Shown: positions 24,328 through 53,509 of the stretch, piece after piece
Numbering within the stretch: position 1 is the first letter of the stretch
How the letters are laid out: every line of letters begins with the position of its first letter
NCBI GenBank assembly: GCA_905221605.1
Contig: CAJNDS010002827.1
Coordinates: 149,235-213,234 of the forward strand
Reading direction: 5' to 3'
From: Symbiodinium natans
Taxonomy: Eukaryota; Sar; Dinophyceae; Suessiales; Symbiodiniaceae
DNA: 64,000 nt
Notes under the pieces: model-generated
Database searches by the model: none
Told to the model about the DNA's origin: nothing
The model's input: the letters and a program-made list of their open reading frames with translations, nothing else
Translations under genes and position numbers: made by a program

Positions 24328-24438
24328 TTTTTCATTCTAACGCGTTCACTGAGTCAGTGATTCGGCGGGCGCAACACACACAGTTGGTGTGGCCATTATG
24401 GCGCGCCGGACACCTACCGCCGTCCATGGCGGCGCGGA

Positions 24439-29613: not shown

Positions 29614-29634
29614 TGGGTAGTGGTTCTGACAAGT

Positions 29635-29641
29635 GTCAAGA
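29635..29641 (-). promoter_or_regulatory. Candidate +1 frameshift site between LINE endonuclease and RT
   Basis: The endonuclease frame ends TCT-TGA-C. Skipping one base gives GAC and enters the RT frame, which is open across the site. Compare the bacterial RF2 site CTT-TGA-C. It may equally be a one-base deletion. Confidence 0.4.
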
Positions 29642-36270: not shown

Positions 36271-36331
36271 AAAAACACACTACCCCCTCCCCCCCTCCCG
36301 ACTCACGCTACAAACAAATTTGAGCCGGAGG

Positions 36332-36346
36332 CTTGACGGGTGGTCT
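36332..36346 (-). repeat. LINE target-site duplication, right copy
   Basis: Same 15 bp as 24313-24327. In element B's frame it encodes DHPS of the RNase H C-terminus. Confidence 0.9.
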
Positions 36347-38481
36347 GCGCAGTTCGACGGGGAAGGGACCCGTGAGAACCAAGGGATGAACTCGCACCCC
36401 ACCTCCAAGCCAACAAACATAGTAAGCAGATTTTTCACTATTGGGGACCTGCCCCGACAGGAAATCAAAATATCCCTAACCGCATTGTTGTCGATGAAAG
36501 CCACAACAGGTGAATGCGCAACCCTTTTGCCCCAAAGGCGGAACGCAAGCAGCACTGCAACAAACTCCGCCTCCATTATAATCGTGTCCTTGTTAAGCTC
36601 ACCCAAGAGCTTGCGGGCATCCCTGTCAAGGGCATGAGAGAAACCAGCAACCAACACACCCTTGTCATCAAACAGAAGGCCACCCACGCCGCAAGGCAGT
36701 GTGGGATCATCTTTCGAGTATGACGCATCCGTGAAAACATACCAGGTTCGTTGCTTGCTAACCTGCACTAATCGAGGGCGGCCGCTTTCCAACATGTCAA
36801 CAAGCGAACTGAAGGTGTCGATGCACTCATCCGGCAGGTCGGGAGGGGCACAACCGTGGGCGTACTCCGAAAGCAGTTGCAAGCAAAATTTGCTCTGGCG
36901 TCCAAACAGCTGGCCACTCGCAAACTGAAGTTTTCCCCTCAGCTTGAGAGCTTGAGGCACACTCATACGCCGGTCTTGCTGGGCCTGCTTCATTGTCTCA
37001 ACAAGGAGATGAACTCTCTTCTCCGTATTGCAAATAGTCACCCGACCCAAGTGGGCACTTGATAGCACTATGTCAACCCCTAGTGCACAAAAGGCCTCGG
37101 CGAACGGTACATCCTTCTTCCCACCCTGGGCGAGGTCCCATCCCAACAAGGCGAAGAGCAAGGTGATTGTTTGGTGTACATTGGCCACCTGTGTGCCTTT
37201 AGCCACCGACACAAAGTCATCGAAGTAGTGGGACCAACAAAGGGCGAAAAAGGATGCACCTAGGTGCCAGATCGAATTAACGGCTCGCAGAAAAGTTGAC
37301 ACGGACTTGACCGCCCCGAAAGGGAGGGCGTGAAGCTGGAACACTACTACCCTCTTCAGGTCAGGATCCCACAACCCAATGTACGAGGCCCATGCCCCCG
37401 TAGGGTCCAGTGCCAATTGTCTATAGGCACTGACCAGGTCATAGAACCTTCCTTTGAGACTACAACCCGGCAGCACTCGCATCAGAGACAGGCACATACC
37501 CGCAATGACGTCAACTGTCTGGGGACGCACAGTCTCCAATGTCTCGACGGAGCCATTGATTCCTGACCCCGAGAAGTCGTCAATCAACCTGATCTTCCCA
37601 TCCTGCTCGATCCCAAACCTTCGAGACACGATGGCATCAGGTGGCAGCTGGTCCACCTCGATGGGACCGGACAACCAGCCCCTGTCGCGCTCCTCAAGGG
37701 TTTGCGTTTGGACCTCGCGATCGAGGGACTCCCCCTGGGACTTAATAGTGGACAACAGGGCTGCCCTAGATGTGGGGGCATCTCTTTTGAGCTGCTCAAC
37801 CGTGACCGACGCCGGCTTGAACTTTGGAGCGAACACTCCTGTATCGGGCACCGGGCCCCCCAGGTTAGTACCTGAGATCACTTCATCAAAGATGGCCACA
37901 TCATCATAGGAAGCCTCAATCATCATTGCCTTCCACAAGAGGAGACGCTTAGGCTTGAGAATCGTCGAGACCTGTTTGTGCATAGACGCCTTCAATGCAT
38001 CTTCCTCACTTCTGAGGTCTTGTGCAAGCTTGAGCCACTTTGCAAATTGTCGCGCCCTCAACGCGCACAGCTCCGACTCTGTCATCGAAGCATGGGTGCA
38101 CACCGCGTCTTTGAGAACCTGTGGCAAGGCGACCTCGAGAGTTCTAGGATGGCCAGCCTTGACTGCCTCACGGACAAACTGTTCCGGGGAAAAGGGAATA
38201 CCCCAAACAAGCTCGTTCCAGAGCTCAGAGCCAGCACTACAACCCTTGCCCCCGGAGCCACCACTTGAACTCCCCTGCTTAACCGGGACCACTTGTAGCA
38301 GTTGGGCTTCGGCCGGCACCGAGCGTTCGGGGCAGACCGCCACTGGCGGTAGGGGCCACGAGTCCTTAAGGCGGGCACGCAGGGGGACAGGACACGAAAC
38401 ACATGGAGGGATTCGTACTCGCAAAATGCGAGCATGTTCGGGCACACGGGGCCCCGTCACCGAGGCCTTCGGCTGACTACC
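36332..38481 (-). CDS. Element B reverse transcriptase - RNase H (3' end displaced by LINE)
   Basis: DIRS-type RT: RLIDDFSGSGINGSVETLE, FYDLVSAYRQLALDP, FQLHALPFGAVKSV, SHYFDDFVSVAKG (catalytic YFDD), LGWDLAQGGKKD. RNase H: WYVFTDASYSKDD (Asp), IIMEAEFVAVLLAF (Glu), AFIDNNAVRD (Asp), NCADHPS. The open frame continues upstream into element A's repeat, so the true start is not visible. In uninterrupted B this frame lies +1 to the methyltransferase-like frame and would continue into it near 47525. The last codons are at 24204-24327, beyond the LINE. Confidence 0.85.
38334..38481 (-). repeat. 148-bp duplication flanking element A, left copy
   Basis: Matches 47380-47527 with one difference (C/T, a CpG-type transition). 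It is coding sequence of element B between methyltransferase-like domain and RT, present once before A arrived. Confidence 0.9.
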
Positions 38482-38757
38482 CTCTTTCTGGGTACGGGGG
38501 TTTTCTGGTTTGGTGTATCTCAATTCCCAAACATATATATACAAAAGGGGAGAAAAACTCATCTCAAACTATCGCTCAACGGAATATCTCATCTTAAGCA
38601 ACTCCTTAAAAATCCTGATGGGAATAACTCATGCATATTCCACCCAGTTCGATCGTTCCTTTTTCTCAGACAGCATCAGGGGTAGCGCGAGGGCCACGTG
38701 CAGTCTCAAGAAGTCTCCCGGCCGCCACTACGGCCTTCAAGTGAGCCCCACCACCCC
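38481..38757 (-). repeat. Element A terminal repeat B2
   Basis: 277 bp, two differences from B1 by eye (A/C near 38613, G/T near 38674). Confidence 0.9.
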
Positions 38758-38773
38758 AGGGAGGGAGGGAGGG

Positions 38774-39125
38774 CAAGAAAATTTTCCTTCCCCTGGCTCA
38801 AAGAAAGGTTTGAGACTGCACGGGCCCAAAGTCATGCACAAGCCTATCTTGCTCTCAAAACTTTCATGTACATGCTGAGGAAAATTTTCCACAAAGACAA
38901 GTGCATCTCGTGCATACATAAGCAAAGTACAATGGAGTATTCAAAGCTGCCTGAAGGCGTCTGAGCTGGAGAACTTGCAACATCCCAGCCGTCCGTTAAA
39001 GGGGGGGGGCAACCTACAACAAGGCTCCCCGCAGCGACATCATGAGCACCAGAAAACCCGCCCGGCCCCTCCCGGGCTTCCCGCACCCAAGGGAAAGAGA
39101 GTCTAGTCGGCAAGCCGAAAACGCC
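38774..39125 (-). repeat. Element A internal repeat A2, with the spliced-leader acceptor
   Basis: On the minus strand about 308 nt unique in the window, ending ...CGTGCAG, then TCTCAAACCTTTC... matching the element's 5' end at 47320-47361. The AG at 38816-38817 is the exact point where the 5' copy switches to spliced-leader sequence, so it is the inferred trans-splice acceptor. Confidence 0.8.
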
Positions 39126-39402
39126 CCTCTTTCTGGGTACGGGGGTTTTCTGGTTTGGTGTATCTCAATTCCCAAACATATATATACAAAAGGGGAGAAA
39201 AACTCATCTCAAACTATCGCTCAACGGAATATCTCATCTTAAGCAACTCCTTAACAATCCTGATGGGAATAACTCATGCATATTCCACCCAGTTCGATCG
39301 TTCCTTTTTCTCATACAGCATCAGGGGTAGCGCGAGGGCCACGTGCAGTCTCAAGAAGTCTCCCGGCCGCCACTACGGCCTTCAAGTGAGCCCCACCACC
39401 CC
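39126..39402 (-). repeat. Element A internal repeat B1
   Basis: 277 bp, directly downstream of the RNase H stop, as B1 is in element B. Confidence 0.9.
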
Positions 39403-39411
39403 TGATAGCGT

Positions 39412-39921
39412 TCAGGCTCGCTTGAGCTCGAAAATCCTCTTCGCCAGCTCTTCCAAGCGGGAGAAGGGTTGGACTTCAGATGCTCCCACCATCGTCACGA
39501 CCTCAATGCCGTGACCTCGCGATGGCGCATCACCTGGGTTCGAAAAGGAAGGCACTCGTGATACCCACCACATGGATGGATGCTCCTGGTCCAACTGAGA
39601 GAAGATTCGGGCAAGAGAATGCATGGCCCAGCTTCTGCTGGCCCCCTTTATCACGAGGCTGCGGGTGGCGTTGTTGTCCACCCACCACACCACTCTTCGG
39701 GACTCCAGGATGGAACTCAATTCCATCATGGATGCAAGAATCGCGAACATTTCGATTTCGCAAATCAGCTGATCCCCGCCGATCTCTGACTTCCACAGCT
39801 CAAGCACCCTTGACGGGACACGGCCCTCATAGACCCAACCGGTCCCGGAGAAGCAGTCATAAGCAGCAAGTCCAAGCCACCCCTGCCTCCCAGGAGCCAT
39901 CCGTCCAAAGGTGAAGGACAT
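39412..39921 (-). pseudogene. Element A RNase H C-terminal part
   Basis: CEIEMFAILASMMELSSIL (Glu), VVWWVDNNATRSLV (Asp), VPSFSNPGDAPSRG (last Asp), end at LAKRIFELKRA. The first Asp (LWTDGSWEAG) is in the preceding frame, so one indel near 39880 splits the domain. Confidence 0.8.
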
Positions 39922-40948
39922 CGGTTGTCATGAAGCACTTCAAAATGCGCGGGGTCTCGTCCTGCAAAAGGCGGATGGTGTGATGGCAAAAATCTCGGAG
40001 GTCAAGAGGGCTGAAGTGTAAGCCACCCACTATGCGCGAGAGCACATGTGAGGCGTGTTTCAAAGCCCTGCCAGCGTAAAAGCCCGAAGCGTATTGCAAC
40101 AAACCCTGCAGGACCTGGGCAAGCTGCCTGCTAATCTCACCCCTAGAACCAACCTCCCGAAGCTGGGCCACAATGCGCTCGATGCGACCCTGCTTGTTGG
40201 CAAGGCTCACCTCTCCTTGGGCTACCCTGTCCAGGCCCAAGGTCATCCCCAAGACGTCAAAGCTTGGAGCAAAAGCACGACCCTTCACACCCGTCTTGGC
40301 GTGACGCCACCCCAGGCAATCCAAGAAGTCGCTCACAACCGAGTCAGCACTGTCGGCCGTGGCCGCTGGACACAGCAGGGGGTAGTCGTCGAAGTACACC
40401 CCGGAAGGAATCCAGAGCAGTCGATTGATCAAGAACCACAAGCAACGGCTCACCCGGTTAAAGGCATACACTGCTGCGGTGCTGCCAAAAAGCAAGCTAT
40501 TTGACAGGTACAGGGCGTCGCGCCCATCTTCTTGCCGCACTGCTATGACTGCCAGAGGCCGGTGGGCTGGCAGAACTGCAAGCTGTTTATACGCTTTGCT
40601 CAAGTCAAGGCACTTGCCGTGCCACTCCTTCGCCTCGGGGTGCGCCCTGCCCTCGTGGATCTCGCGGGCCACGAACAGGGCCATGGCGGCCAGGTAGTCA
40701 CCGTCTTGCAAACGCAAGTGGATGCTCGATGTGTACCCCGAGTTCAGCTGGGCCTCGAGGCAGTTGTCGATTGGGCGTGCTTTGCCCTCAGCACCCTGGA
40801 AAATGACGAAGCGGCGTATCACCGTCCAGTCCTCTGTCTCGAGTCGGGATGAAACTTCATCCCTGCTGTCAAAATGGCCCCTCAAGGAAACCGAGCGACA
40901 CCTCCTCTTGAGATGCCTCCGCCAAGACTCTTGCCTCCTCAGCATCAA
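39857..40948 (-). pseudogene. Element A reverse transcriptase (DIRS type)
   Basis: VIRRFVIFQGAEGKARPIDN, CLDLSKAYKQLAVLP, YLSNSLLFGSTAAVYAFNRV, GVYFDDYPLLCPA (catalytic YFDD), LGWRHAKTG, then FMTTDVLHLWTDGSWEAG beginning RNase H. Convincing coding starts at DSRDEV, right behind the methyltransferase-like frame's stop (40869-40871); the upstream codons are shadow. The counterpart in B (LSGPIEVDQLPPDAIVSRRF) is continuous, showing where the frames should join. Confidence 0.8.
40868..40874 (-). promoter_or_regulatory. Candidate +1 frameshift site TTT-TGA-C in element A
   Basis: The upstream frame ends LEGPF-stop and the RT frame resumes DSRDEV after skipping one T. Alignment with the unbroken B sequence places the switch within a few codons of this stop. 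It resembles the prfB (RF2) +1 site CTT-TGA-C. Alternative: a one-base insertion in this dead copy. Confidence 0.45.
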
Positions 40949-42746
40949 TCGGCTCGGACTTGCTCAAAAGCGCCTCCCGTCTGACCTGTGCAGTCTGGAA
41001 GAGTTCGGCTTCAGTCAAGGCCGCGGGCACAAGCTTGTAGTCGAAGCACGGAGGGCACTCTGATACCCCCACCAAAGGCACCCCCTCCTTAAGGAATTTG
41101 ATGGCTCCCATGTCGTCATATCCCTCCGACTGCAACAAAGCCTCAAGGGCAAGGATGGCCTTGCCCTCCATGACCTTGGCCACCGAGCGTGGCATTGATT
41201 TGTGAAGCGCCCTCTCCTCAGCTCGGAATCTGTCCACCTCTCGTCTCACCCTGGCCAGAGCAAGCCGACGCTTCAACTCCACCAGCTTCGGGTCCTTGGT
41301 GAGGTTCTCCCTCAAGGCTGCGAGCGTCACAGCCTCCAAAGGATTGGCAGAATCCATTGGGCGCGGCACCTTCTTCGCCTCATCCACAAACTCAGAAGGA
41401 CTCCTAAGAACCCCCACTTGAACCCAATCCTCACAACCATCCTGCAAAGGCGAGCCACTAGGAGTTCCAGGCTCAAGCGACGAAAAGGCTGAGGTCTCCG
41501 GGATGCTCCCTCCCTGAACAGCGCCTGACAAAATCGGGGCTCCAGGGATGGTCCCTCCCTGAAGGGTGCTAGTGGAACCGGGGGCTTCAGGGATGGTCCC
41601 TCCCTGAAGGGTGCTAGGGGAACCCGGGGGCTCAGGAGCCTCAGAGATGGTCCCTCCCTGAACGGTGCCAGGGGAGAGCGGGGCTCCAGGGATGGTCCCT
41701 CCCTGACGGATGCCTAGGTCCTGCTGCGCCAGAACACCCCCTATCGAACTGCGCAGAAGCTTCAGGTGAGGCAAAGGGGCAAAAGACTGCCGAGGCATCC
41801 ACGTGACCTGGCAGAACTCTGACACGAGAGGAGCATGTCTGCGGTGCTGTCTGCCGGCGAACTGCAAAGCTTGACTCCGCGCGGTGGGTTGGGGGATCAA
41901 CGAAAAACCCGCCGCTAGCGCCCGCTGGGCCACGCAGAGAGAATACCTCTGTGCAAGGATACAAGGATACGCGGCCTCATCCTTGGTTGCAAAACGCACA
42001 CTCCCGCAGTCGACGATCCTGCCCCACGGCTTGTGAAGGTGATTTCCCGGGCAGGATGCCCGGAGCGACTCAAAGCACTTGGGGGAGCACAGCAGCTTGG
42101 TTCCTTTGGGCCTGGAGCCCCCATGGCAGCATTGATCAAAGCACACCTCAGAAAGACGGGGCAGGAGGCGATGACGGGGCTCAGACGGCTCGAACGCCGC
42201 AAGAATCTCCCACAAGAAACTATTGCGCGGGTTCTCAATGCAAACTATGATGCGATTGTCCAGACAATATCTGAGCACTCTATAGCCGAAAGCATAGAGC
42301 CGATTGGCAGTGTCAACTCGACAAGAGTCCACAGAGCCAGGCTGTAAGCTGGGCAGCCCCAGCGGGAATTCGCGGCTGCGCAGGGGAGACGGCCCCTTCT
42401 CTCCATTTGGCAAAGGTCTGCCTCGCGCCTTGCTGCTTGTCCCACACGGCAAACCAAGATGCACGAGGAACGGAGGATGTTTCTTCATCAGATCCCAGAA
42501 AAGGCTCTGCCCTACTTCAGAGGACAGGTCAAGTTGAGCTACAGGCACACAGGAGTCACAATGGTGATGGTCAAAGCTATGCACGTGAAAGCCTGCCTGG
42601 CGCAAGGCACGGGACAACGAACCCTTCCCAGCAAACAACTCAAAGGCGCAGGGAGGCCTAGAAAGTGTTTGTGATGTCTCAAGCGGGATGGGAAGCTCCG
42701 GTGGCAGCAGGAATCCTAAGGCCCGCGCCCTAGCCAGCTCGTCCAA
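40869..42746 (-). CDS. Element A DNA-methyltransferase-like domain plus pre-RT region
   Basis: Residues about 30-300 form a SAM-dependent methyltransferase-like domain: FELFAGKGSLSRALRQAGF (motif I, FxGxG), HLGLPCGTSSKARG (Pro-Cys, as in cytosine-C5 motif IV), VCIENPRNSFLW (Glu-Asn, as in motif VI), CHGGSRPKGTKLL. The counterpart in B has FSGMS, APPCGTASRAR, VENPRQSLYW. The Pro-Cys and Glu-Asn pairs point toward the C5 family, but spacing and the ENP form are unusual, so the base modified is open. After this come five QGGTIPxAP repeats and a helical region homologous to the start of the RT frame in B. Followed by RT in +1. Confidence 0.7.
   Translation of the reverse strand: MDELARARALGFLLPPELPIPLETSQTLSRPPCAFELFAGKGSLSRALRQAGFHVHSFDHHHCDSCVPVAQLDLSSEVGQSLFWDLMKKHPPFLVHLGLPCGTSSKARGRPLPNGEKGPSPLRSREFPLGLPSLQPGSVDSCRVDTANRLYAFGYRVLRYCLDNRIIVCIENPRNSFLWEILAAFEPSEPRHRLLPRLSEVCFDQCCHGGSRPKGTKLLCSPKCFESLRASCPGNHLHKPWGRIVDCGSVRFATKDEAAYPCILAQRYSLCVAQRALAAGFSLIPQPTARSQALQFAGRQHRRHAPLVSEFCQVTWMPRQSFAPLPHLKLLRSSIGGVLAQQDLGIRQGGTIPGAPLSPGTVQGGTISEAPEPPGSPSTLQGGTIPEAPGSTSTLQGGTIPGAPILSGAVQGGSIPETSAFSSLEPGTPSGSPLQDGCEDWVQVGVLRSPSEFVDEAKKVPRPMDSANPLEAVTLAALRENLTKDPKLVELKRRLALARVRREVDRFRAEERALHKSMPRSVAKVMEGKAILALEALLQSEGYDDMGAIKFLKEGVPLVGVSECPPCFDYKLVPAALTEAELFQTAQVRREALLSKSEPIDAEEARVLAEASQEEVSLGFLEGPF
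41497..41720 (-). repeat. Short in-frame QGGTIPxAP repeats
   Basis: Five copies of a roughly 45-bp unit (GGGATGGTCCCTCCCTGAA on the plus strand) coding QGGTIPGAP-type peptide between methyltransferase-like domain and RT. Absent from element B at this place. Confidence 0.85.
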
Positions 42747-43277
42747 GGCTCAGTCTGATGGTAGTTTGACCATGCATCAAAAACTAACGGCTCGGAAGTA
42801 AGCTCATGCACGCTGCCACTCAACTCAAGCTGACCAGAAACCCGCACGTCGTCACCTGGTCCCTCTATCCACAATCCGCCGCCCTTGAAGTCTGTGACTC
42901 GGAACAAGGCATTGGGCCAAGGTGCGTTGCGCCCATCCTTATGAAGAGGGGTCGCACTGTTCGAAAAAGAAGCCACAAGTGGAGAACACATGACCGGGAA
43001 GACGCTCCTGGACGAAGCGGGTCATAATTCGGCTTGCAAGCGGAAAATTGTGACACTCCTTGCGCAACCCCCGAAAACCTCCCTGGGCATAGCAACCAGT
43101 CACGAAAGCACTACGAACTTCACGCGAACCTCCTCGCACCTCATCCTTCGGAAGCAAACCAAAGAGCGACTGAAGGTCGGACTCCGAGATCTGTGCAGCA
43201 CTCTTCAAACGCGTTTGTGCCCAAACCTCAGGATCCACTAAGGACAGATCCCCAGTTTCCAGTGCGCCACAATTCAC
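42716..43277 (-). pseudogene. Element A 2OG-dioxygenase-like domain, frame-shifted
   Basis: 43277-42939 has FVTGCYAQGGFRGLRKEC and FVQERLPGHVFSTCG; 42991-42716 has TPLHKDGRNAPWPNALFRV (HxD), DFKGGGLWIEGPGDD, YHQTEPW (downstream His). These follow element B's FTGMFRRGGVLGL, EPHRDAHN, GGVWCEG, HWHMTEPW. Two frame changes, near 42960 and near 42740, the second with loss of the Arg-bearing strand, kill this copy. In B the same domain is intact in one frame. Confidence 0.6.
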
Positions 43278-43316
43278 CCCTCCAGAGTCCGGCGCATCCT
43301 CTGGGGGGCCCCGTCA
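43277..43316 (-). promoter_or_regulatory. Candidate stop-readthrough site after Gag in element A
   Basis: The Gag stop is TGA-CGG (43314-43316). The next ORF is in the same frame and open. Five nt after the stop is a strong stem: CCCCCCAGAG (43299-43308) with CTCTGG-A-GGGG (43277-43287), one bulged A, 11-nt loop. TGA-CGG plus a 3' stem-loop is a known readthrough signal class in plant viruses and alphaviruses. Element B instead has a +1 relation at this junction, so function is unproven. Confidence 0.45.
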
Positions 43317-44495
43317 AGAACCCCCTTTAGGGCAATTAGCAAAAGGGTGACTTCCAAAGCAGCCCTTACGCCAACACTTGTGGAAACCTTTGAGGCACCT
43401 GCCATTCTTGCACTTGTTCTTGCACCCATGCGTGTTGTATGCAAAGCACAGCGGACGGTTGGCATCGTCCTTCGTTACACACCCCTCGGGAAGATCAAGC
43501 GTCTTGCCAGCGCCTTTCCCCTTTTTCTCCTTGCCAGCGCCCTTTCCTCCCTTGTCCCCTGGCTTGCCCCCATGCAGGAACTGGTGTGGCGGAGGATTCG
43601 GCAAGGGGGCCAAGTATTGCATGATCTCAGGACTACGTGAAAGGCGGGTGATCTCGGCATCAAGAACTGGATCTGTGCCCGCAGGTGCTGTCAACCTGCC
43701 CATCAAGTTATTACTTGCAAGAATGAACAGCTGCTTGTCGGCCTCGATGATCTGTGACAACTGAACTCCTGCAAATCCCTTTGGCTGAACCCGCTGCAAA
43801 ACTGAGAACAGGAACTGAACATGCTCCTCCAGCACACGAAAAGAAGCGAGATTAGCCATGTCGAAAGCCAGCGACCTTCTGCTCCAAGCTTGCCGAAGGC
43901 GCATCTCTGAAGCCACGTCGCACGCGAGCTCATGTGGCTTCATAGTCACCTTCAAGCTATGATCAGCTGCAAGATTGACGCTACTGTCGCGCTTGAGGCA
44001 CTGGGCTTCCTGAGCTCGGCTGATCCACTTGCTAGGAGGATGATATTGCAAAACGCCTGACTCCAGCATCTCAACACAAAGGTCCACGCATGAGTTCGCC
44101 GGCCGGGTCTCAGGAGTGAAGACCAAGCCGCCCAGAGTCCTCTCCTGGCGAGCCTGCCTGTCCATGCGCTCGGCAGCTGCTAACTTCTTCGGATGTCCTT
44201 CCACCCCGGGCTCGATCCGTGACTTGACCTCCTCAATGGCCATGCTGACGCCATCGAAGAGAAGGCGGCGCAGGCTCGCCTTCTGGTAGCCGGTGGGACT
44301 GATGCCAAGACCGTTGATCCACGCGTCCACAGCCTCATCAGTCAAGGTGGTAGGCGTCGCCGACACAGCGAAAGCCAAGCGCCCGAACGTGGTGTAACCA
44401 TTGTCCACTAGGCCCTGGATGGTCTCTTCGGTGAGGCCAATCTTCGTAGCTCTATCCAAGAAAGCCGCCTCTGAATCCAGGTTCGCTGAAGCCAT
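43314..44495 (-). CDS. Element A Gag-like protein with Cys/His knuckle
   Basis: 393 codons from ATG. The N-terminus MASANLDSEAAFLDRATKIG lines up with element B's MSSLIESEAHFLQRAREI. The middle is mostly helical and unremarkable. A Gly/Lys linker (GKGAGKEKKGKGAGK) precedes the C-terminal Cys/His cluster: LCFAYNTHGCKNKCKNGRC then FHKCWRKGCFGSHPFANC, like the CCCH/CCHC knuckles that bind retroelement RNA. About 73 nt upstream of the ATG is GTTCTTTTCAG (minus strand), a plausible trans-splice acceptor. Confidence 0.75.
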   Translation of the reverse strand: MASANLDSEAAFLDRATKIGLTEETIQGLVDNGYTTFGRLAFAVSATPTTLTDEAVDAWINGLGISPTGYQKASLRRLLFDGVSMAIEEVKSRIEPGVEGHPKKLAAAERMDRQARQERTLGGLVFTPETRPANSCVDLCVEMLESGVLQYHPPSKWISRAQEAQCLKRDSSVNLAADHSLKVTMKPHELACDVASEMRLRQAWSRRSLAFDMANLASFRVLEEHVQFLFSVLQRVQPKGFAGVQLSQIIEADKQLFILASNNLMGRLTAPAGTDPVLDAEITRLSRSPEIMQYLAPLPNPPPHQFLHGGKPGDKGGKGAGKEKKGKGAGKTLDLPEGCVTKDDANRPLCFAYNTHGCKNKCKNGRCLKGFHKCWRKGCFGSHPFANCPKGGS

Positions 44496-44878
44496 GATTC
44501 ACACCGTGCGGCGTAGGCACTCAAAGGCTGATCGAATGATCCCTTCGAACTACAATATAATCTGAAAAGAACTCGCCAAAATTTGAAATCTCGGCATGAA
44601 GTCACAGATGAACTGACACCATGCGTGCACGTGTATCCTTAGAAAGCTCTTCCTCGCTGGAGCCTCTCATCTGCCATTGACATGAAAGTCCACTGGATGC
44701 TCAACTGCCATGTCTTTGCAGCAACGCGCCCCCTCTATCGAGTGCCATCTCCCAGGCACTCAGGGTCGCGATCCTCTCGCACATCAGCACCCAGAAGAAC
44801 ACCTCGCTCACAGGGCCGCTCCCAGGCCCCTGAGGTTGTAAACTCCTCTTTTGACTTTCACAGCAGTGATGTCTCTCT
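44496..44878 (-). other. Spacer between recombinase and Gag in element A
   Basis: 383 nt without coding. B has a spacer of similar length at the same place (50296-50728). With a pyrimidine-rich AG shortly before Gag in both, these spacers may allow separate trans-spliced Gag mRNAs; this is inference. Confidence 0.5.
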
Positions 44879-46993
44879 CTACTCGCCCATGGCGCGCGAA
44901 CACTGCAAGCAGACGTCGGGATCCTCAGCTCCCACGCCCTCATATGAAGAGTATCTCTCGGTGCAAAGCCTCCCGCACAAGAAGACGCCATCCTCCCTCA
45001 AGCAGTGCGCTATGCCCGAAGTCATATGGATTCTACACTTGGCCAGGTCGACGTTCGCAAAAGGAGCCCTCACCAGCTTCGGACCTGGGACGTCGAAAGG
45101 TTCAGGTTCCTCTGGCTCCGAGGCGGAACCATCAGAGTCAGCCTCCAGCTCCACCGGTGGCTCCAAGCCCGAAACTTGCCGCCGTCCTCCCTCAGTACTA
45201 GCCGACTGCACTCCCTTCTCCAAAGCATCCGCCACCTGCATGACACGTGATGCTGGATCCAGATCTGGGTCGAAAGCCCCGCCTCGAATGGTTCGGTAGA
45301 GCGCGAGAACCTTTCCAGCCAAACTCGTGTATGCTTCCCGACTGTAGGTCACCATGCTCTTCACCTTCGGGAGGACGTGGTGGCCCAGAAGCAAGCGTTC
45401 ATCATCGGTCAGCTTTATGATAGTCGATCGCCCTGCCCACGTCAACAAAGTGGTCTTCAAGGAATGCGTGCCGATGCGCTGGTTCTCTACCCCAGTGTCT
45501 GCCAGCCAGTCCTGAATCCAAGCTGTCGCTTCCGCGGAACCCATTTCGGTCGAACCCCAGGTGTCCAGCCTCAATGACCATGTAGGCAGAGCAAAACCAT
45601 CAGCGCCCTCACCAAATGTGAGGCCGCAACTCGCCCTCGCATCTAGCCAAAGTTTTCCCCATCCACACTCTGTCAAGCCTTGCGCAAGAGCTGCATACGG
45701 CGTGAATCGGGTTTTGGCCTCCTTGCTGTGCGAAGTCTTACTTCCCAGTGCTTCGGCGAAAATCAGCTGGCTTTCTCCGTCTCCCAGAAGATGCACAGCC
45801 TTCAATCGCTGTGAGTCCTTCCATCGGCACACCGCATGCAGGCAGAAAAGAACATGACCCAAAACGCAGCGCTCCACCTCTCCAGCTCTCACCATGATGT
45901 GCTCCAGAGTCATGGCCTGTTTGCACTTCAGTGAATCCCTCTGAACCAGGGGCTGCTTTCCCAAGAAGGACGAATGAGCCAGACCCTTGCACCTCGCAGA
46001 AATGACAACCTTGAGATCCATGCACCGGAAATGTACCACGGCATGCATGAAGTGCAGAGCCTCCAAAACATGTGAAGGAGCTGACGCACCGCAGCCACTG
46101 TCCCGCATGGCCGACAGCGCCGAATACAAATCGGACTCTTCCATCCTCCATGGAGATCCAACGCCTTGCTTAAAGAGCTGGACCACCAGACGGTGCAACG
46201 ACCCTGCTCTCTTGGTGAGGGTGCCCGCCGCCTTCTGTGCGAAGGCATCGCAAAAACTAGCTGCCGCCAGATCTTCGTCTTCTAGCTCACCGGTTTTCAG
46301 CATCAAGTGTCTCCCTAGGTTCGTAGCCATAGGGTCCAAGAGCACCATGACCTTGAGCTTCTTTAGGGCATGGTTCCTCTCATCTTCGTCACTACGCACG
46401 ATGCGGATTCTCTGCAGCCTTCGTTGCACAGTCCAAGGAATCTCTTGAAAATCATCACTGCCAAGCTCGACATCAGGATCCGGAGGGTTAACTGTCTCTC
46501 GAATCCCCACGCTGGGGGTCATGGCAAGCCAGCTGGTCAAAGATGCCGTGAACGGGTCGCCTCCAAACACAGGGTGGTCCTGCCAGGCCTGTTTGGGACC
46601 CTCCACCCTCAACTTCTTGAAAGACATCTCCGCAGCCAGTTTAACAAAGGCCTCGTCACTGAGCCGAGCCCGCGTCTTCGAAGAGCTGGCCGGTTCTGCT
46701 ACTTCAGCAGCGCACACAGAAGGCTCTCCCAGATGTTCAAAGGATAAGGGCTTCTCCGGAAAAACACCCACCTCATGGACTGGTGACGAAGGTCTGTCCT
46801 CCCGAACTGCGTTGTACCAATCAGCTTCATCTACCAAAGATGGCTCATAATCAAACAACTCCTCTTCACGGGCAAACTCACCAAAAGGCTTCGGATCCCA
46901 AACACCCCCTGAAATTGAAGGCTCCGAAGGCTGAACCACGTCCCAAGAAGGAGCTGAACCTGCAGGGGAGGATGAAGATTGTGTCTCTTCCAT
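44879..46993 (-). CDS. Element A tyrosine recombinase
   Basis: Integrates the circular or linear cDNA. The first ATG overlaps the ORF0 stop by one base (TGATG). An acidic N-terminus (about 110 residues) precedes the SAM-like core-binding region. Catalytic pattern: CRWKDSQRL (first Arg, near 390), GTHSLKTTLL (His-x-x-Lys in place of HxxR, near 510), LLGHH (second His), TYSREAY (Tyr). The last 50 residues form a Cys/His tail: HMTSGIAH, FLCGR, CLQC, similar to the tail in B and echoed in Copia C0. Single intact frame of 704 codons. Confidence 0.85.
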   Translation of the reverse strand: MEETQSSSSPAGSAPSWDVVQPSEPSISGGVWDPKPFGEFAREEELFDYEPSLVDEADWYNAVREDRPSSPVHEVGVFPEKPLSFEHLGEPSVCAAEVAEPASSSKTRARLSDEAFVKLAAEMSFKKLRVEGPKQAWQDHPVFGGDPFTASLTSWLAMTPSVGIRETVNPPDPDVELGSDDFQEIPWTVQRRLQRIRIVRSDEDERNHALKKLKVMVLLDPMATNLGRHLMLKTGELEDEDLAAASFCDAFAQKAAGTLTKRAGSLHRLVVQLFKQGVGSPWRMEESDLYSALSAMRDSGCGASAPSHVLEALHFMHAVVHFRCMDLKVVISARCKGLAHSSFLGKQPLVQRDSLKCKQAMTLEHIMVRAGEVERCVLGHVLFCLHAVCRWKDSQRLKAVHLLGDGESQLIFAEALGSKTSHSKEAKTRFTPYAALAQGLTECGWGKLWLDARASCGLTFGEGADGFALPTWSLRLDTWGSTEMGSAEATAWIQDWLADTGVENQRIGTHSLKTTLLTWAGRSTIIKLTDDERLLLGHHVLPKVKSMVTYSREAYTSLAGKVLALYRTIRGGAFDPDLDPASRVMQVADALEKGVQSASTEGGRRQVSGLEPPVELEADSDGSASEPEEPEPFDVPGPKLVRAPFANVDLAKCRIHMTSGIAHCLREDGVFLCGRLCTERYSSYEGVGAEDPDVCLQCSRAMGE

Positions 46994-47316
46994 CACGAAG
47001 ACAGAGGAAGGAGCTCACGAAGGCGATTCTGGGCTCCACGATCACAAGCAGAAAAGCAATACCAATCCCGCTCTCGAAGAAAGATCAGCACCCTCGAGCC
47101 CTCTGCCAAACTGACCAGCACACCCTGCAGTGTAGCAGTCAAGACGTACGTGAAGATGGACGGCGGGCTCTGCAAGCGCCTGAGCAGCAGACCAAGATGG
47201 AAAGAACGAGGTCGGAGCACGACCGGCACCAGGGCAGGGAACCGAGGCACAGCCTCCCAGTCCCAGCTCAGGCTTGATGCACTCGAATCTTCAGAGGACC
47301 AAGCGCTCGCGTCCAT
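46993..47316 (-). CDS. Small conserved ORF0 of element A
   Basis: 107 codons from ATG, first ORF of the element, 45 nt behind the spliced-leader junction. It corresponds over its length to ORF0 of element B: MDxSA start, Ser-rich lead, then PPSIFTYVLTATLQGVLVS / PPDIFSYIVEPSFRGLLIS, EGSRVLIFL / EGARFLLCL, RDWYCFSA / SDWNRFGA, LRELLPL / YRQLLPL. Conservation across strongly diverged elements argues for a real protein. Family unknown. The stop overlaps the recombinase ATG. Confidence 0.65.
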   Translation of the reverse strand: MDASAWSSEDSSASSLSWDWEAVPRFPALVPVVLRPRSFHLGLLLRRLQSPPSIFTYVLTATLQGVLVSLAEGSRVLIFLRERDWYCFSACDRGAQNRLRELLPLSS

Positions 47317-47319
47317 CAA

Positions 47320-47361
47320 CAAGAAAATTTTCCTTCCCCTGGCTCAAAGAAAGGTTTGAGA
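47320..47361 (-). repeat. Remnant of element A terminal repeat A1
   Basis: 42 bp (44 counting the AG shared with the leader) identical to 38774-38817. The rest of A1 is absent because the copy starts at the trans-splice junction. Confidence 0.85.
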
Positions 47362-47379
47362 CTTGAGCCAAAATGGCTA
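47362..47379 (-). other. Relic dinoflagellate spliced leader at the 5' end of element A
   Basis: On the minus strand TAGCCATTTTGGCTCAAG, an 18-nt perfect match to the 3' part of the 22-nt DinoSL (only the first four nt are missing). It is joined to the element at the position of an AG in the internal copy A2. This is the mark of a reverse-transcribed, trans-spliced mRNA. Confidence 0.93.
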
Positions 47380-47527
47380 AGACCGCCACTGGTGGTAGGG
47401 GCCACGAGTCCTTAAGGCGGGCACGCAGGGGGACAGGACACGAAACACATGGAGGGATTCGTACTCGCAAAATGCGAGCATGTTCGGGCACACGGGGCCC
47501 CGTCACCGAGGCCTTCGGCTGACTACC
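47380..47527 (-). repeat. 148-bp duplication flanking element A, right copy
   Basis: Direct copy of 38334-38481, one mismatch. It starts exactly where the spliced-leader relic ends. It codes element B sequence (KASVTGPRVPEHARILRVR) in the RT frame. Confidence 0.9.
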
Positions 47528-49160
47528 AACTTGGCCACGGACAAGCGACAGCTGGAGGCCTGCGGGTGGGAGCGTGCGGGGCGGGCAGGCCTTGGGCCAG
47601 AGCACGGGTCAAGGGGAGTGGATATGCAGCCTCCAGGGACGTGGAAAAACCGTTAGGTGCGTCTGGAGCCACCCCCCAAGGCAAATGACGTGGGGCGCAA
47701 GGGTGCCCCGGGCAGGATTTGCATATGCCGTCAAACGCACCCCGAGTGTATGCGATAGCCGTCCATTTAGGACGACGCCCGCCATAAGCGCAGCTTTGGA
47801 ATGCAGTAAACTGAAGTAGGTGCGCGATTCGTGCAAACATGGAAGTGCGCCAGTAAAGGCTTTGTCGGGGGTTCTCCACCCCGATGACAAGGTCGCGAGA
47901 AGCAGCCTCAAGAACCAGGTCAGACACACAGTCGTAGAGCTGATTAGCTAAGGTGACTCGGAGGAGGGCCTGCCCACTGAGCTGCGGTAATCCGTTCGGA
48001 AACTTTTCCGAGCGGAGAGGAGGGGGTCCAGGAACACCTTGAACTTCCCTTGCACGGCTGGCCGTTCCACACGGTGGAGCGAACCAAATGCCCACACAGT
48101 TAGGCATAAGAAGCCACCGTCGAACCAACTCGACGCCCTCAGTCGTACACAAGTCGATAAGATGAACATGACAGGCGGCGCCGGGAAGGCGTTTATGGTC
48201 AACCGCGACAGCATCAAACCCAAGCTGCTTTAGGCAGGCCGAGAGCCTGGACATACCGGAGAAGACCTCGATAATAAACGGTGGCCTTGAAGACTCCACA
48301 CTGGCAGACGGGGCGGGCCCTGGGGCAGGCTCCGGCGTGAGGCCCGTGACATCCGGAACGGCTGACAGCGCTGGGAGGAAGGCTGGTGGCAGGGCAAAGC
48401 CAAGCTCAAGGAGGGCCTGGGGAACCTCAAGCTTGACTGATGGCATATGAGGCAACGCATATGCTACCAGGACAACACGGCGGCCCTGCCATGGTTCAGT
48501 CATGTGCCAGTGGTCTTTAGCAGGCAGCTCGAGGCAGCCATCCTCGAAATTGAGCACACGACCCTGGACCGGAGAGCCTTGGACAGGCCGAATGTCTTGC
48601 CCCGGGCCTTCACACCAAACACCGCCCCCAGTGAAGCCGGAGATCTTGAAAACCAGATTGGGCGTTGGCCCATTGTGGGCATCACGGTGAGGCTCAGTAG
48701 GGATGTCACAAAATATGGCCAGAGAAGTGAAGACCGCAGCCGGCCGTCGTTGCCTAACGAACGCACAGAGGGCCTGCGTGACCTTTGGGAAACGAGAAAC
48801 GTTGGTCCGAAGGCCCAGCACACCCCCTCTCCGGAACATGCCAGTGAAAAACGAGCTACCCGACGCCGCCTTATGGGGAGCTTCGTGCGGAAGAAGCTCC
48901 CACAGGGAGAGCACAGACTGAGGTTCAATAAGCTGGCCCTGCAAAAGTTGCTCAGCAAGCTCTTCAGGGTCATCGCAAGCAACACATGAATTCAGCTGAG
49001 AGGTTGACACAGGAGTGACGGAAACTGGGGGCTCAACCTTGTGCACAGATTGACCGACCACAACGGGAGCCACAAAACCAGTTTCGACAAGCGGCGGAAC
49101 GGCTGTCAACACGGGCTCATCCGACGTTGAACTAACAAACTCCGTCTGGCACTGACTGTC
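47523..49160 (-). CDS. Element B dioxygenase-like + methyltransferase-like polyprotein segment
   Basis: Continuous frame. The frame is open further upstream over Gag but that part is shadow; real coding starts behind the Gag stop, reached by a +1 shift. Dioxygenase-like domain: GMFRRGGVLGLRTNVSRFP, EPHRDAHN (HxD), FTGGGVWCEGPGQD, DHWHMTEPWQGRRVVLVAYA (His and Arg). Methyltransferase-like domain: PFIIEVFSGMSRLSACLKQL (motif I), IWFAPPCGTASRARE (Pro-Cys), VIGVENPRQSLYW (Glu-Asn), CAYGGRRPKWTAIAY. Both domains look intact, so an active protein is possible. Ends in TAG within the 148-bp repeat; RT continues in +1. Confidence 0.75.
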   Translation of the reverse strand, partial: DSQCQTEFVSSTSDEPVLTAVPPLVETGFVAPVVVGQSVHKVEPPVSVTPVSTSQLNSCVACDDPEELAEQLLQGQLIEPQSVLSLWELLPHEAPHKAASGSSFFTGMFRRGGVLGLRTNVSRFPKVTQALCAFVRQRRPAAVFTSLAIFCDIPTEPHRDAHNGPTPNLVFKISGFTGGGVWCEGPGQDIRPVQGSPVQGRVLNFEDGCLELPAKDHWHMTEPWQGRRVVLVAYALPHMPSVKLEVPQALLELGFALPPAFLPALSAVPDVTGLTPEPAPGPAPSASVESSRPPFIIEVFSGMSRLSACLKQLGFDAVAVDHKRLPGAACHVHLIDLCTTEGVELVRRWLLMPNCVGIWFAPPCGTASRAREVQGVPGPPPLRSEKFPNGLPQLSGQALLRVTLANQLYDCVSDLVLEAASRDLVIGVENPRQSLYWRTSMFARIAHLLQFTAFQSCAYGGRRPKWTAIAYTRGAFDGICKSCPGHPCAPRHLPWGVAPDAPNGFSTSLEAAYPLPLTRALAQGLPAPHAPTRRPPAVACPWPSW

Positions 49161-49164
49161 ACTC
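49158..49164 (-). promoter_or_regulatory. Candidate +1 frameshift site GAG-TGA-C between Gag and Pol of B
   Basis: The Gag frame ends KDHKE-stop with GAG-TGA-C; skipping one base gives GAC and the Pol frame SDSQCQTE. Both frames are open across the junction. Could also be an indel. Confidence 0.4.
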
Positions 49165-50295
49165 CTTGTGATCCTTGATAGGGTGCGGCTGGAAACACTT
49201 GCAACACAGGTGCTTGCGAGGGCATGTGGCTGCGGAACATTTGCACTTGTCCCCATGCAGATTGTAATCGAAACACAAGGGCTCACCTGTGGGAGCATTG
49301 GCCACACCGCCTTTCTGGAGGATCTCTTTTGGGACGCGAGCGCCGAGGGCGAACTTGCCTTTGCCTTTGCCGCCACCCTTGGGTCCACCCTTGACCCTTT
49401 TGTCACCAGGCTCAAGCTTTCGCTTGAGCTCGCGGCGCTCCTTGTTTCCATTGCCTTGCTTCTGTGGAAGCGGTATCAAGGCCATTGAAACATGGTAGCT
49501 TTCCAGCGCCGAGATCAACGCATCATCCATAGGGAAGCTTCCATCTGCGGCAGCGCGAGGCTGGACTCCCAGTTCAATCATGCGGACAAACACTTGTCTG
49601 TCTGCTTCCACCAACTGTGCAACGGAGCAACGCGCAAAACCCGGGGGAGGCTCCCTGTGGAGATTGCTGAACAGGCGGGAGATGTACTTCTCGTAGGCAT
49701 TGAACGAAAGGCACTGGGCAAACACATAGGCGATGCCCCTGCGGCGGAGAGCCTCCTGAACTTGCAGTGCGCTATGGGTTGGCATACTCATGGCATCATC
49801 TGTTTCTTTGATAACAAGTTTGGAACTCTCAAGTTCAAGCTGGCGGGATGCGCCCTTAGAGTGGGTGACTTCGTGTGTTCGCGACACACAGCGATCGGGG
49901 CTGAGGTACTTCAACTGATTGGCAGATTCTTGCCTGACGCAGTCTTCCAAGACACATCTCCCAGGCTCCATGCCCCCTTCAATGAGCACACCTGGAAGAC
50001 GACCTCTGAGTTGTTGCAAACGCCTTTCCCGTTCCGCCTCCGGCATTTTCCTGGAGGCGCCTTCCGGATCGGAAACTTGCAGGCGCAAGTCAGCCAACAC
50101 TAAGGTTTGTGCCTCAAAGACGAGGCGGCGTATGCACGCCTTGCCCGCTGCATTGGCTCCAGGTGCGGTAGTGGTGCAGAAGGCGCCCAGGCTAGTAAAT
50201 CCACCAACTCGAAGCTCAGCTAGCACAGCATCGGGGCACTTGATCTCGCGGGCGCGCTGGAGGAAGTGGGCCTCAGACTCAATCAAGGAAGACAT
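49159..50295 (-). CDS. Element B Gag-like protein
   Basis: The ATG at 50295 is chosen because MSSLIESEAHFLQRAREI then matches the start of element A Gag; eight upstream codons are open but lack an ATG. Core: helical, with LRVGGFTSLGAF, CVLEDCVRQESANQLKYLSP, FAQCLSFNAYEKYISRLF. A basic linker (KRKLEPGDKRVKGGPKGGGK) leads to the Cys/His cluster LCFDYNLHGDKCKCSAATC, RKHLCCKCFQPH. Presumed to package element RNA. Intact. Confidence 0.75.
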   Translation of the reverse strand: MSSLIESEAHFLQRAREIKCPDAVLAELRVGGFTSLGAFCTTTAPGANAAGKACIRRLVFEAQTLVLADLRLQVSDPEGASRKMPEAERERRLQQLRGRLPGVLIEGGMEPGRCVLEDCVRQESANQLKYLSPDRCVSRTHEVTHSKGASRQLELESSKLVIKETDDAMSMPTHSALQVQEALRRRGIAYVFAQCLSFNAYEKYISRLFSNLHREPPPGFARCSVAQLVEADRQVFVRMIELGVQPRAAADGSFPMDDALISALESYHVSMALIPLPQKQGNGNKERRELKRKLEPGDKRVKGGPKGGGKGKGKFALGARVPKEILQKGGVANAPTGEPLCFDYNLHGDKCKCSAATCPRKHLCCKCFQPHPIKDHKE

Positions 50296-50728
50296 GGCAC
50301 AGGAAGCTACGCTGTCCAATCTACGAAGAAATCACCCTTGAACTCCGCCAAAGAGCAACACCAAGAAGACACAGAACAAACACCACACATCAAAGTACAT
50401 CAAGTGACATGTCCGCTTTCTACTACTGCGAGCCTGGGTTGAAACATCGCATTCACAACGCACCACACTCATGTTGCATGCATGGCCCCTGGGCCCCTAA
50501 TGCCTATAAAGCCCCTTGGCTAGGCATTGGCACCATGTGCCACAAGGCTCATAAGGGACCATGTCCTTGCCTTGAATCCAACACTCCGACATTTAGCCGG
50601 CAACAGCACATACTGCAGTCCACATTGCCTCACATTAGCCCCTGGGCACACAAGTCGCTACCATGTAGCAAACTCTTTTCTTCATCACAGCGATCAGAAA
50701 CGATCAAACGTCCTCCCGCCACAACTCG
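50296..50728 (-). other. Spacer between recombinase and Gag in element B
   Basis: No coding. Ends with a pyrimidine-rich GATTTCTTCGTAG about 25 nt before the Gag ATG, a candidate trans-splice acceptor parallel to that in element A. Confidence 0.45.
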
Positions 50729-51478
50729 TCATAGGTTGCGCTTACATGTGCGACACTCAGGATTCATAAGATCCTCCTCTGAAGGCAAGACATACATAGC
50801 CGTGCGCGGACGTCCACACACTAGAATGTTGTCGCCATAGGCATGATGAAGAACTCCAGATCTGGAGTGTTTCACCCATGTACCAGTGCCTTGCACAGGG
50901 TTCACACCGGGAACAGACACACGGGCATCAACACGCACAGGACCCCGCGACGCTTGTGAATCACTTGACCCTGATGACTCACTCGAACTATCGGAGGACG
51001 ATGACTCTTCTTCACCTGAGCTTTCAACCTTGATCGCAGGTGCCAAGGAGGCGGCAGAGTTTGCCTGAACAGACACCACACTTTTGCTCTGCAACGGCCC
51101 GCCAGGTGGAGGCGGTTGAGGAGGGAAAGCCCACATTTGTCCCCGGGCTGCATCCGGGGAAAACTCAAGCTGTCTGATGGCATCCAAGACCGTTTCCAGC
51201 TCCCGCACGGGCCCCATGCTTAGCTCAACAGAGTACACGGCTTCCGTTCCTTCAACAGCTGTGACATGCCTGCCTAAGCAAGACCGCACCTCCTTCTTGG
51301 ACCCAGCCTTGCTGGCCCAAGAGATGCAAGTTCTCTTCAGGCTGTGCGAGGACACCACATTATCACCAAGCGCGAGCCTCAAGAAGGCGGAAACTTCCCC
51401 CGACGTAATGGCCCTGCGAGCCAGCACGCCATTGGCCAGTGGTGGACGGAAGAGGGCAGCACCAACATGTCCTTGCAA
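50729..51478 (-). pseudogene. Element B tyrosine recombinase, catalytic C-terminal part
   Basis: VVSSHSLKRTCISWASKAG (HxxK/R box), SCLGRHV (second His/Arg region), EAVYSVELSMGP (Tyr), then an acidic Ser-rich linker and the Cys/His tail HSRSGVLHHAYGD, VCGRPRTAMY, CRTCKRNL. In -1 frame to the N-terminal part; the switch lies around 51470-51530. Confidence 0.8.
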
Positions 51479-52887
51479 CAGAAGACCAACTTTCTCAAAG
51501 GCACACTTGCATGATTCATCAACGGAATCAAGATTGGGAGCAGCTGAGCAACTCTTCTGGCTGCCCTGGCAGTTTTATGTTGCTTGACTCGGATTACCAC
51601 GTAGCCATCACGACCCTCTCCATCCACGTCCACGTATGCCACTTTACGGAAGTCAGATTGTCTAGCACGCGCATATAAGCACAGGAGACAATATCCAGCA
51701 AAGGCCCGATCCCAATCTGAGGTACCTTGTCCATGCAACAGTGAATGAAGGGTGCGGACCTGCGCCACAGTGAGCGGGGGAGCTTGCTTGAGATCCCCAA
51801 GGTTGGCCAACATACGCTCAGCCGCACCAACACACCTGCGACTCAGCTTGTTAGGGATGTTAGTAACATCCATCACGAAGTAAGCAAAACGCAAGGCCGA
51901 CAAGAAGGACGAAGCTTTGGAGGGCGGGGCTTGCGAGCCATCTAGGAACTGCATGTACCTCCAGGACATGTCGTCAGTAAAGGGGTCGAGGTTGGCACCA
52001 ACAATTGTGTCAAACCACCTCAGGAACGTGAGGATGCTACCCGCCCTTTTGGAGGCAGTTCCTGCAGCCCTCGACCCAATACACGCCTCCAATGCCAGCG
52101 GATCAACCTCACACTCCGGATGCATTTTGCGATTTCTACGCATGATAACAATCCACTTATCAACTGCAAGCCTCACTGCTTTACTTTGCTGGGCATCAAC
52201 GTCCACATCAGAGAGGACCTTGAAAACATTGGACGCGAGGTCACCAGACACGAACAGCTCCTCCGATTCATCCAAGGAAGCGAAAGGATCACACGGAGGC
52301 AACTGAGGGGTCCAGATCCCCGTCTCACGCATTGAAAGGGTTGGCATTTTGAGTTCAGAAAACACCGAGGACTCACCAAAGATTGCACTGACAGCAGGCA
52401 GCTCCCAAGGCAAAACAACATCAGACATGCCCCCATCCGCCAAACGCACAAAGTTGTCGGCGAACACATCACCCACGGTACGGGCCATTTTTGACGGGGG
52501 CTCGTCAACAGGAAGTTTCTCAGTCTCGGACAAATGAGGGTCAGCCTCTGAGGCGTCATGCTCCTCGGACTGGCTCGGCAGGTCATCACGCACACATGAC
52601 TTGCATGAAGTATGCTCAGAGCTGAGCTCAGACATGCCAGGGTTGACTTCAACCAAGAAGTCTTCCATCGCTGAGACAGGGGAGTTATCATCTCCCCAAT
52701 CTAGGGCATCATCTTCCGCATCCGACGGCCTTGGCAACACGAACAAAGGTCCAGAGGACTGCACACTAGGCCCAAAGGGAGGCAACTCCAAGTGAGCAAT
52801 AGGAAGGACTGGTGGTCCATCATCTTCGCTGACATGGCCAACCGAACCATCATCCCCCATTATATCCGGCAGACTGTCAGTAGACAT
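51379..52887 (-). pseudogene. Element B tyrosine recombinase, N-terminal part with catalytic Arg
   Basis: The ATG at 52887 (MSTDSLPDIMGDDG) is the first in frame after the ORF0 stop; upstream codons lack an ATG. An acidic N-terminus is followed by the core-binding region (AAGTASKRAGSILTFLRWFD) and LLCLYARARQSDFRKVAYVD with the first catalytic Arg. The frame breaks before the HxxR box, so this copy needs a -1 shift or is inactivated by an indel, although its repeats are otherwise identical. Confidence 0.8.
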
Positions 52888-52901
52888 GGCAGCAAAACAA
52901 G

Positions 52902-53213
52902 TCAACCTGGGAGAGGGAGCAGCTGGCGGTAACACGACTGCACCCAATGGGCAGCAGCACCGAACCGATTCCAGTCAGACACCGTGAGGCAGAGAAGGAA
53001 CCTGGCCCCTTCACTCCGACTAATGAGGAGGCCACGGAAGCTGGGTTCGACAATGTAGCTGAAGATGTCAGGCGGTGCCGCAACACGGCGCTGAAGGTCC
53101 GGTACGTGATAGTGCAGGGGTCGAATGCGAACAGGCGCAAAGACAAAGGAGGGCACTGGCACACGGAAATCGTCTGATGACGATGTGGACACACTGGATG
53201 CGGACAGATCCAT
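52902..53213 (-). CDS. Small conserved ORF0 of element B
   Basis: 103 codons from the ATG at 53213; aligned with element A ORF0 from the first Met (MDLSA / MDASA) to the end (LLPLPG / LLPLSS). The stop is 14 nt before the recombinase ATG. Short, Ser-rich start, hydrophobic core, no known motif. Position and spacing suggest translation coupled to the recombinase. Confidence 0.65.
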   Translation of the reverse strand: MDLSASSVSTSSSDDFRVPVPSFVFAPVRIRPLHYHVPDLQRRVAAPPDIFSYIVEPSFRGLLISRSEGARFLLCLTVSDWNRFGAAAHWVQSCYRQLLPLPG

Positions 53214-53300
53214 CCACCCCCCCGATCGCGGGGAAGCTTGCACGACACTAAAGCCTTAGCACCCAGTACAGAGCCACTAAATTAGACGCGGCCCCGAGCC
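53214..53300 (-). other. Element B leader between A1 and ORF0
   Basis: 87 nt, non-coding, with AG dinucleotides after TTTAGTGTCGTGCAAG that could serve as acceptor. Confidence 0.4.
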
Positions 53301-53509
53301 TCAAAATTTTTGCACTGAGCTGTGGAGCCAGCGCTGCAAACACAGATCTCCAGCAAGCGAAGTTCCGCAAATTGCTGTTCGTAAAATCAAGCATGACAAG
53401 CAACAGAAACCTTTTGGGTTGCAAACCACGAACAAACGGCCCACACCGTTTTTCGAAGAGCCGATATGGAAGCAAGCGGTAAAACACCATTCGCTCGCGA
53501 ACAGTAAGC
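53301..53509 (-). repeat. Element B terminal repeat A1
   Basis: 209 bp equal to A2 (23798-24006). Begins (minus) GCTTACTG. The Copia frame next door reads into it for a while, which is fortuitous. Confidence 0.9.

Follow-up and report, generated by a model that had tools for sequence, protein, structure and literature searches.

Organization of element A and its target

The window (the whole 64-kb stretch of Symbiodinium natans DNA analyzed here) contains a retrotransposon, element A, which runs on the minus strand from 47379 to 38480 and lies inside a second element, B. As summarized in Table 1, element A comprises, in order, a partial spliced leader, a remnant of repeat A1, ORF0, a tyrosine recombinase ORF, a CCCH/Gag-like ORF, Pol, and the repeats B1, A2, and B2, with a 16-nt C/T-rich stretch after A2 and before B2. 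Split repeats are present in the order A ... B1 A2 B2, A1 being truncated in this copy. ORF0 starts with MDASAWSSEDSS, which is also the N-terminus of the S. natans protein P0001. Pfam gave no match for the CCCH/Gag-like ORF. In Pol, a reverse transcriptase was recognized by Pfam (RVT_1, 1.3e-5, at 25.5 bits under the curated cut-off of 29.6), and the S. natans protein P0138, named reverse transcriptase in UniRef, was 95% identical over 26% of the Pol query. The methyltransferase-like and RNase H-like parts were assigned by eye only, and Pfam matched no DNMT domain in A, in B, or in the proteins P0087, P0089, and P0091. The initial annotation took the element to be autonomous, which this copy does not bear out, its Pol being split over overlapping frames.

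Table 1. Features of element A and of the sequence into which it inserted
Feature	Coordinates	Strand	Remarks
Target-site duplication, left copy, 148 nt (or 146 with the 2-nt GG microhomology counted in B2)	47380..47527	.	Ends exactly at the leader
Leader tail, 3′ 18 nt	47362..47379	-	First bases of the inserted copy; exact match
A1 remnant, 42 nt (44 with the AG common to the leader)	47320..47361	-	Identical to 38774-38815
ORF0, 107 aa	46993..47316	-	First ATG downstream of the leader; stop codon overlapping the start codon of the ORF that follows
Putative tyrosine recombinase ORF	44879..46996	-	Homologues and conserved catalytic residues
CCCH-type, Gag-like ORF	43314..44495	-	Named by eye only
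Pol	39412..42746	-	Three overlapping frames: 42746-40869, 40948-39857, 39921-39412
Repeat B1	39125..39402	-	276/278 identical to B2
Repeat A2, 351 nt	38774..39124	-	Unspliced acceptor AG at 38816-38817
Repeat B2	38480..38757	-	Insertion ends at the terminus common to B1, without poly(A)
Target-site duplication, right copy	38334..38481	.	Directly after B2; reads on into Pol of element B
Element B, target of the insertion	23476..53509	-	A1 from 53509 equals A2 from 24006, 209/209 nt
LINE inserted in element B	24313..36346	-	15-nt duplication AGACCACCCGTCAAG (36346-36332, 24327-24313) and short A-tail

Tyrosine recombinase and family membership

Among 8000 scored candidates, the predicted recombinase had 86 homologues at E ≤ 0.001, including two (P0079 and P0080) that carry the UniRef name 'Tyr recombinase domain-containing'. 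Tyrosine recombinases have the motif order R..K..HxxK..H..Y. In an alignment of 26 sequences (the query and 25 of the 86 homologues), R391, K420, and H511 were conserved in 26/26 rows, K514 and H539 in each of the 24 rows without a gap, and Y551 in 23 of 24. Pfam Phage_integrase matched neither the recombinase nor its alignment, Phage_int_SAM_1 reached 0.017 at best (in 2 of the 26 rows), a PDB sequence search with the alignment returned no recombinase match, and of 10 stretches in IMG/VR that fitted the recombinase patterns, none was confirmed as a relative. The conserved R, K, H-x-x-K, H, and Y, together with the two UniRef names, identify this ORF as a predicted tyrosine recombinase. With split repeats, this recombinase, and a reverse transcriptase all recognizable in its sequence, element A fits the DIRS-order (YR) retrotransposons.

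Over residues 150-640, the recombinase was 99% identical to the S. natans proteins P0001 and P0002, neither of which contains the window's own translation; if both come from the same genome, family A would have at least three copies. In P0001, ORF0 and the recombinase are fused as though across a cis intron (46960-47060, minus strand; apparently GA-AG, by eye), and the window copy keeps this stretch, which the P0001 gene model, judged from the protein, seems to splice out.

Leader junction at the 5′ end of element A

The inserted copy begins with TAGCCATTTTGGCTCAAG, which corresponds to the 3′ part of the dinoflagellate spliced leader with 0 mismatches over 18 nt, only the first 4 nt (DCCG) of the published 22-nt leader (PMC12014239, PMC6050394) being absent. 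No other site in the 64-kb window came within 3 mismatches of this tail. While 1.6e-6 exact 18-nt matches are expected in the window by composition, 5 of 100 shuffled windows also yielded a site at ≤3 mismatches, and it is therefore the exactness and the position of the match that carry weight.

A2 reads GGGCCCGTGCAG|TCTCAAACC where A1 reads TAGCCATTTTGGCTCAAG|TCTCAAACC. From the AG onward, the two repeats were identical at 44/44 nt (47363-47320 and 38817-38774), and in the 32 nt upstream of the AG they agreed at 6 positions, the level of unrelated DNA. Compared with the full length of A2, A1 has lost 309 nt, made up of 307 nt and the AG that is now supplied by the leader. Such a junction is what trans-splicing at GCAG would be expected to leave. 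These data agree with the initial annotation, which had read the start of the element as the last 18 nt of the spliced leader, had put the join at the AG of the internal copy A2, and had placed the acceptor inside the A repeat with a loss of roughly 308 nt of A1; A2 keeps the unspliced sequence.

A near-perfect inverted repeat was observed between the A2 acceptor region (38810-38827) and the B repeats (38691-38709 and 39336-39354). It spans 19 columns with one gap and scores 31, against a mean of 18.1 and a maximum of 33 in 500 shuffles, so that chance can reach its score. Such a structure could hide the A2 acceptor in RNA. Element B has a different pairing with a similar score (29).

Target duplication and empty sites

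Element A is flanked by a direct duplication, the two copies of which were identical at 147/148 positions. Two G residues are common to B2 and the duplication, giving the latter a length of 146-148 bp. The duplicated stretch sits within Pol of element B, so that A inserted inside B. There were 39 relatives of B Pol, and the four that were compared (P0087, 97%; P0088 and P0089, 92%; P0091, 49%) all continue without an insert; P0087, P0088, and P0089 read LVRGQVGSQPKASVTG...VAVCPERSVP and carry a single copy of the stretch, P0088 and P0089 perhaps representing one locus. A search of the genome (759 Mb, 2543 contigs) for the flanking stretch gave 52 candidate places, of which 40 were scored. One was the A junction, one was the right-hand duplicate, and the other 38 lacked the junction; in 36 of them the match runs to the very base that precedes the leader, and in 2 it ends earlier. 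Of the places scored, only this locus has the junction, and the 38 other places are probably empty sites.

The B Pol frame that matches the relatives is open across the whole duplicated stretch on both sides. A mismatch between the left and right frames of the B Pol ORFs, considered as an argument against a simple duplication, was traced to a frame break further upstream in B and was dropped. The divergence was 1/148 in the duplication, 2/278 between B1 and B2, and 0/44 between A1 and A2; the insertion of A appears young.

Two other insertions in the same target

Element B has the full repeat order, with 210/210 identity between B1 (24215-24006) and B2 (23685-23476), and its A1 and A2 share their first base, with no leader ahead of A1. 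Its flanks show no duplication. DIRS1-like integration is described as occurring without target-site duplication (PMC3266345), and the flanks of element B are as this model predicts.

The LINE inserted in element B encodes an APE-type endonuclease and a reverse transcriptase in adjoining ORFs, and its empty site is seen in P0087. The reverse transcriptase ORF of this LINE (24328-36331, minus strand), 1779 aa in length, also bears a ubiquitin C-terminal hydrolase domain (UCH, 1.8e-15). Compared with element B and the LINE, element A has a 5′ leader, a B2 end without a tail, and a duplication ten times that of the LINE; of the features of LINE target-primed insertion, it shows the duplication and lacks the A-tail.

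Element A as a probable retrocopy of trans-spliced RNA

We consider it likely (with a probability of roughly 85%) that element A arose by reverse transcription of a trans-spliced RNA from a SymbioDIRS-like tyrosine-recombinase retrotransposon and that it was inserted by a route other than its recombinase. Both the trans-spliced RNA origin and the non-recombinase insertion are strongly suggested by the two junctions. The copy lacks the first 4 nt of the leader and extends to the B2 terminus, and it carries what marks a DinoSL retrocopy, namely, a leader relic at its 5′ end, at the acceptor of a parent sequence seen in A2. A2 stands in here for the leaderless parent, and P0001 and P0002 point, as proteins only, to further S. 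natans copies. Unlike element A itself, its insertion event is not of the DIRS-order kind, as a duplication of 146-148 bp is present. Because of this duplication, insertion by the recombinase is disfavored, and we discarded it in view of DIRS1-like integration without duplication (PMC3266345). Two features speak against a retrocopy: there is no poly(A), unlike in classical mRNA retroposition, and a duplication of ~148 bp is long for a LINE (15 bp in the neighboring one). The evidence for a leader-tagged element A comes from one locus only, which does not establish the cycle through mRNA that the initial annotation had raised as a possibility.

For the RNA that gave rise to the copy, host trans-splicing at the AG inside A1 would replace the first 309 nt with the leader. 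This acceptor may normally be used for a capped mRNA of ORF0, YR, Gag, and Pol, the unspliced RNA presumably being the form able to circularize. Spliced RNA, once reverse transcribed, would be without the A1 end required for the B-A circle junction, and such an A1-less cDNA could probably reach the genome solely via target-primed insertion of the LINE type or via repair of a break, leaving a dead-end copy; by the published circle model, the loss of A1 would be expected to block the next cycle. Because there is no poly(A) and the copy ends exactly with B2, the RNA seems to have ended, or priming to have begun, at the element's own 3′ terminus. Since the window copy keeps the apparent intron of P0001, this RNA would have been trans-spliced but incompletely cis-spliced, provided that the intron is real.

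One reading of the position of the acceptor is speculative and, in our judgment, rather unlikely. The acceptor in the terminal repeat might act as a switch and an incidental trap, with spliced RNA serving as message and unspliced RNA as genome, and with a message that is reverse transcribed from the element's own 3′ terminus landing sterile and leader-marked. If this were true, trans-splicing would be a standing drain on such elements, visible as leader-marked copies genome-wide.

Routes of insertion and alternative origins of the junction

As to the route of insertion, LINE machinery may have taken up the trans-spliced RNA in trans, with target-primed reverse transcription and a far second-strand nick; this leaves the RNA origin unchanged, and we rate it at slightly less than an even chance. 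A LINE with an APE-type endonuclease lies 2 kb further downstream, likewise within element B. Its first-strand nick was at GGTCT|GC, while the top strand at the 5′ junction of A reads GGTCT|[leader] and the right duplicate runs on as GGTCT|GC. With 16 occurrences of GGTCTGC across 128 kb of strands, a chance coincidence at a named point comes to ~1e-4 per comparison. However, the motif was noticed post hoc and in the single LINE copy examined, and the match at A is on the second-strand side rather than the first. Moreover, the 3′ junction of A has no A-tail, although the neighboring LINE has a short one. An exceptionally long target duplication reportedly features in the title of a paper on R9 elements cited in PMC2861651, and target duplications arising from a downstream second nick have been described (PMC2881922).

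The copy may also have been made by the element's own reverse transcriptase, primed at the 3′ terminus, in which case the circle would have failed without A1 and repair of a staggered break would have taken in the linear cDNA. The exact B2 end, the absence of a poly(A) tail, and the GG microhomology (2 nt) where the 3′ end joins the target are in line with this route, which we hold to be a real but somewhat doubtful possibility, since a clean duplication of ~148 bp without deletion or filler would be unusual for end-joining.

Template switching, in which reverse transcriptase left unspliced element RNA for the leader on a different mRNA, could in principle have occurred at 2-nt homology, AG alone being common at the join, but the jump would need to have hit exactly the last base of the leader and exactly GCAG in A, which makes this origin improbable. 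More improbable still is an assembly chimera of an SL-tagged stretch and a truncated element; the genome is repeat-rich and gave 40 scored matches to the flanking stretch, but one side of the join matches a splice boundary to the base and the other side the end of the duplication, and misassembly would hardly yield both. That the 18 nt are ordinary sequence of the element, which the initial annotation had named as the finding that would overturn its reading, or that they match by chance was rejected as next to incredible, nothing having been found in favor of either and given that A2 and the A1 of element B are both without the leader and that 1.6e-6 matches are expected.

Relation to known systems

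Element A resembles SymbioDIRS-Dnmt3 (PMC5890265) in its Symbiodinium host, its YR in an ORF of its own, its Pol with reverse transcriptase, and its repeats, arranged as A-coding-B-A-B; in that study, the YR and Pol ORFs are described in two alternative orders. Unlike SymbioDIRS-Dnmt3, it has no DNMT domain recognized by Pfam and starts with a spliced leader, a term that does not occur in the text available from PMC5890265. With the DinoSL-tagged retrogenes (DinoRL; PMC12014239, PMC6050394, PMC8045281), it has in common that a leader relic stands at the start of a cDNA copy in the genome. In two Symbiodinium genomes, 22.3 and 23.2% of genes are classed as retrogenes (PMC6050394), and PMC8045281 describes a DinoSL library. 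In the available portions of these sources, however, DinoRL are discussed as host genes, whereas element A derives, on our reading, from retrotransposon RNA with an acceptor in a terminal repeat, and its target duplication was measured.

Endogenous dinoRNAV elements are likewise non-host RNA that returned with a leader to a Symbiodinium genome, 6 of 26 RdRp ORFs having a dinoSL within 500 bp (PMC10235124), but they represent viral RNA that does not itself go through a retrotransposition cycle. For Cer1 of Caenorhabditis elegans (Gypsy/Ty3), a short spliced mRNA is found with and without SL1, and the 8-kb full-length RNA is not trans-spliced there (PMC3315495); in contrast to element A, Cer1 is an LTR element known from RNA evidence, and the accessible part of that paper describes no genomic retrocopy of an SL-bearing RNA. 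VIPER and SIRE of trypanosomatids are, like A, YR retrotransposons with split direct repeats in a trans-splicing host, but no leader-bearing genomic copy of them appears in what is accessible of PMC6681497.

The literature already describes host retrogenes with a leader tag, viral insertions associated with a leader, and SL1 trans-splicing of Cer1. Among the matches listed from the open-license PMC literature, outside which most subscription papers lie, there was neither a leader-tagged tyrosine-recombinase element nor a trans-splice acceptor within the terminal repeat of a YR element. The view that SL-marked host cDNAs are established while the YR case seems new is sustained to this extent, DinoRL being in print and the open-license matches listed containing no YR case.

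The makers of leader-tagged retrogenes are unsettled, with retrotransposons named and retroviruses kept possible in the accessible part of PMC12014239. Such host retrogenes are common in dinoflagellates, and the A locus would be a base-exact fossil of one such event, offering both junctions, empty-site relatives, and, as controls, two insertions that entered the same target by other routes. It suggests that YR element RNA is a substrate of host trans-splicing and that splicing at this point takes away a repeat presumed necessary for the element. The set of junctions makes the mechanism of insertion (LINE in trans versus the element's own reverse transcriptase and repair) testable genome-wide.

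Other leader-like sequences

Two further exact 12-nt leader tails, TTTTGGCTCAAG, were found in the window at 4786-4797 (plus strand) and 57267-57278 (minus strand), where 0.006 are expected by composition. The former follows a Copia-type RVT_2 ORF at 2298-4526. Both are perhaps decayed leader relics. A search for the leader in IMG/VR returned two contigs, which have no bearing on element A. One of them (L001, 7157 bp) has leader copies at L001:2746-2763 and L001:2893-2910 (minus strand), 147 nt apart in AT-rich DNA, and is perhaps DNA of a dinoflagellate-associated virus or of an alga; both of its leader copies carry the further 5′ bases CCG.
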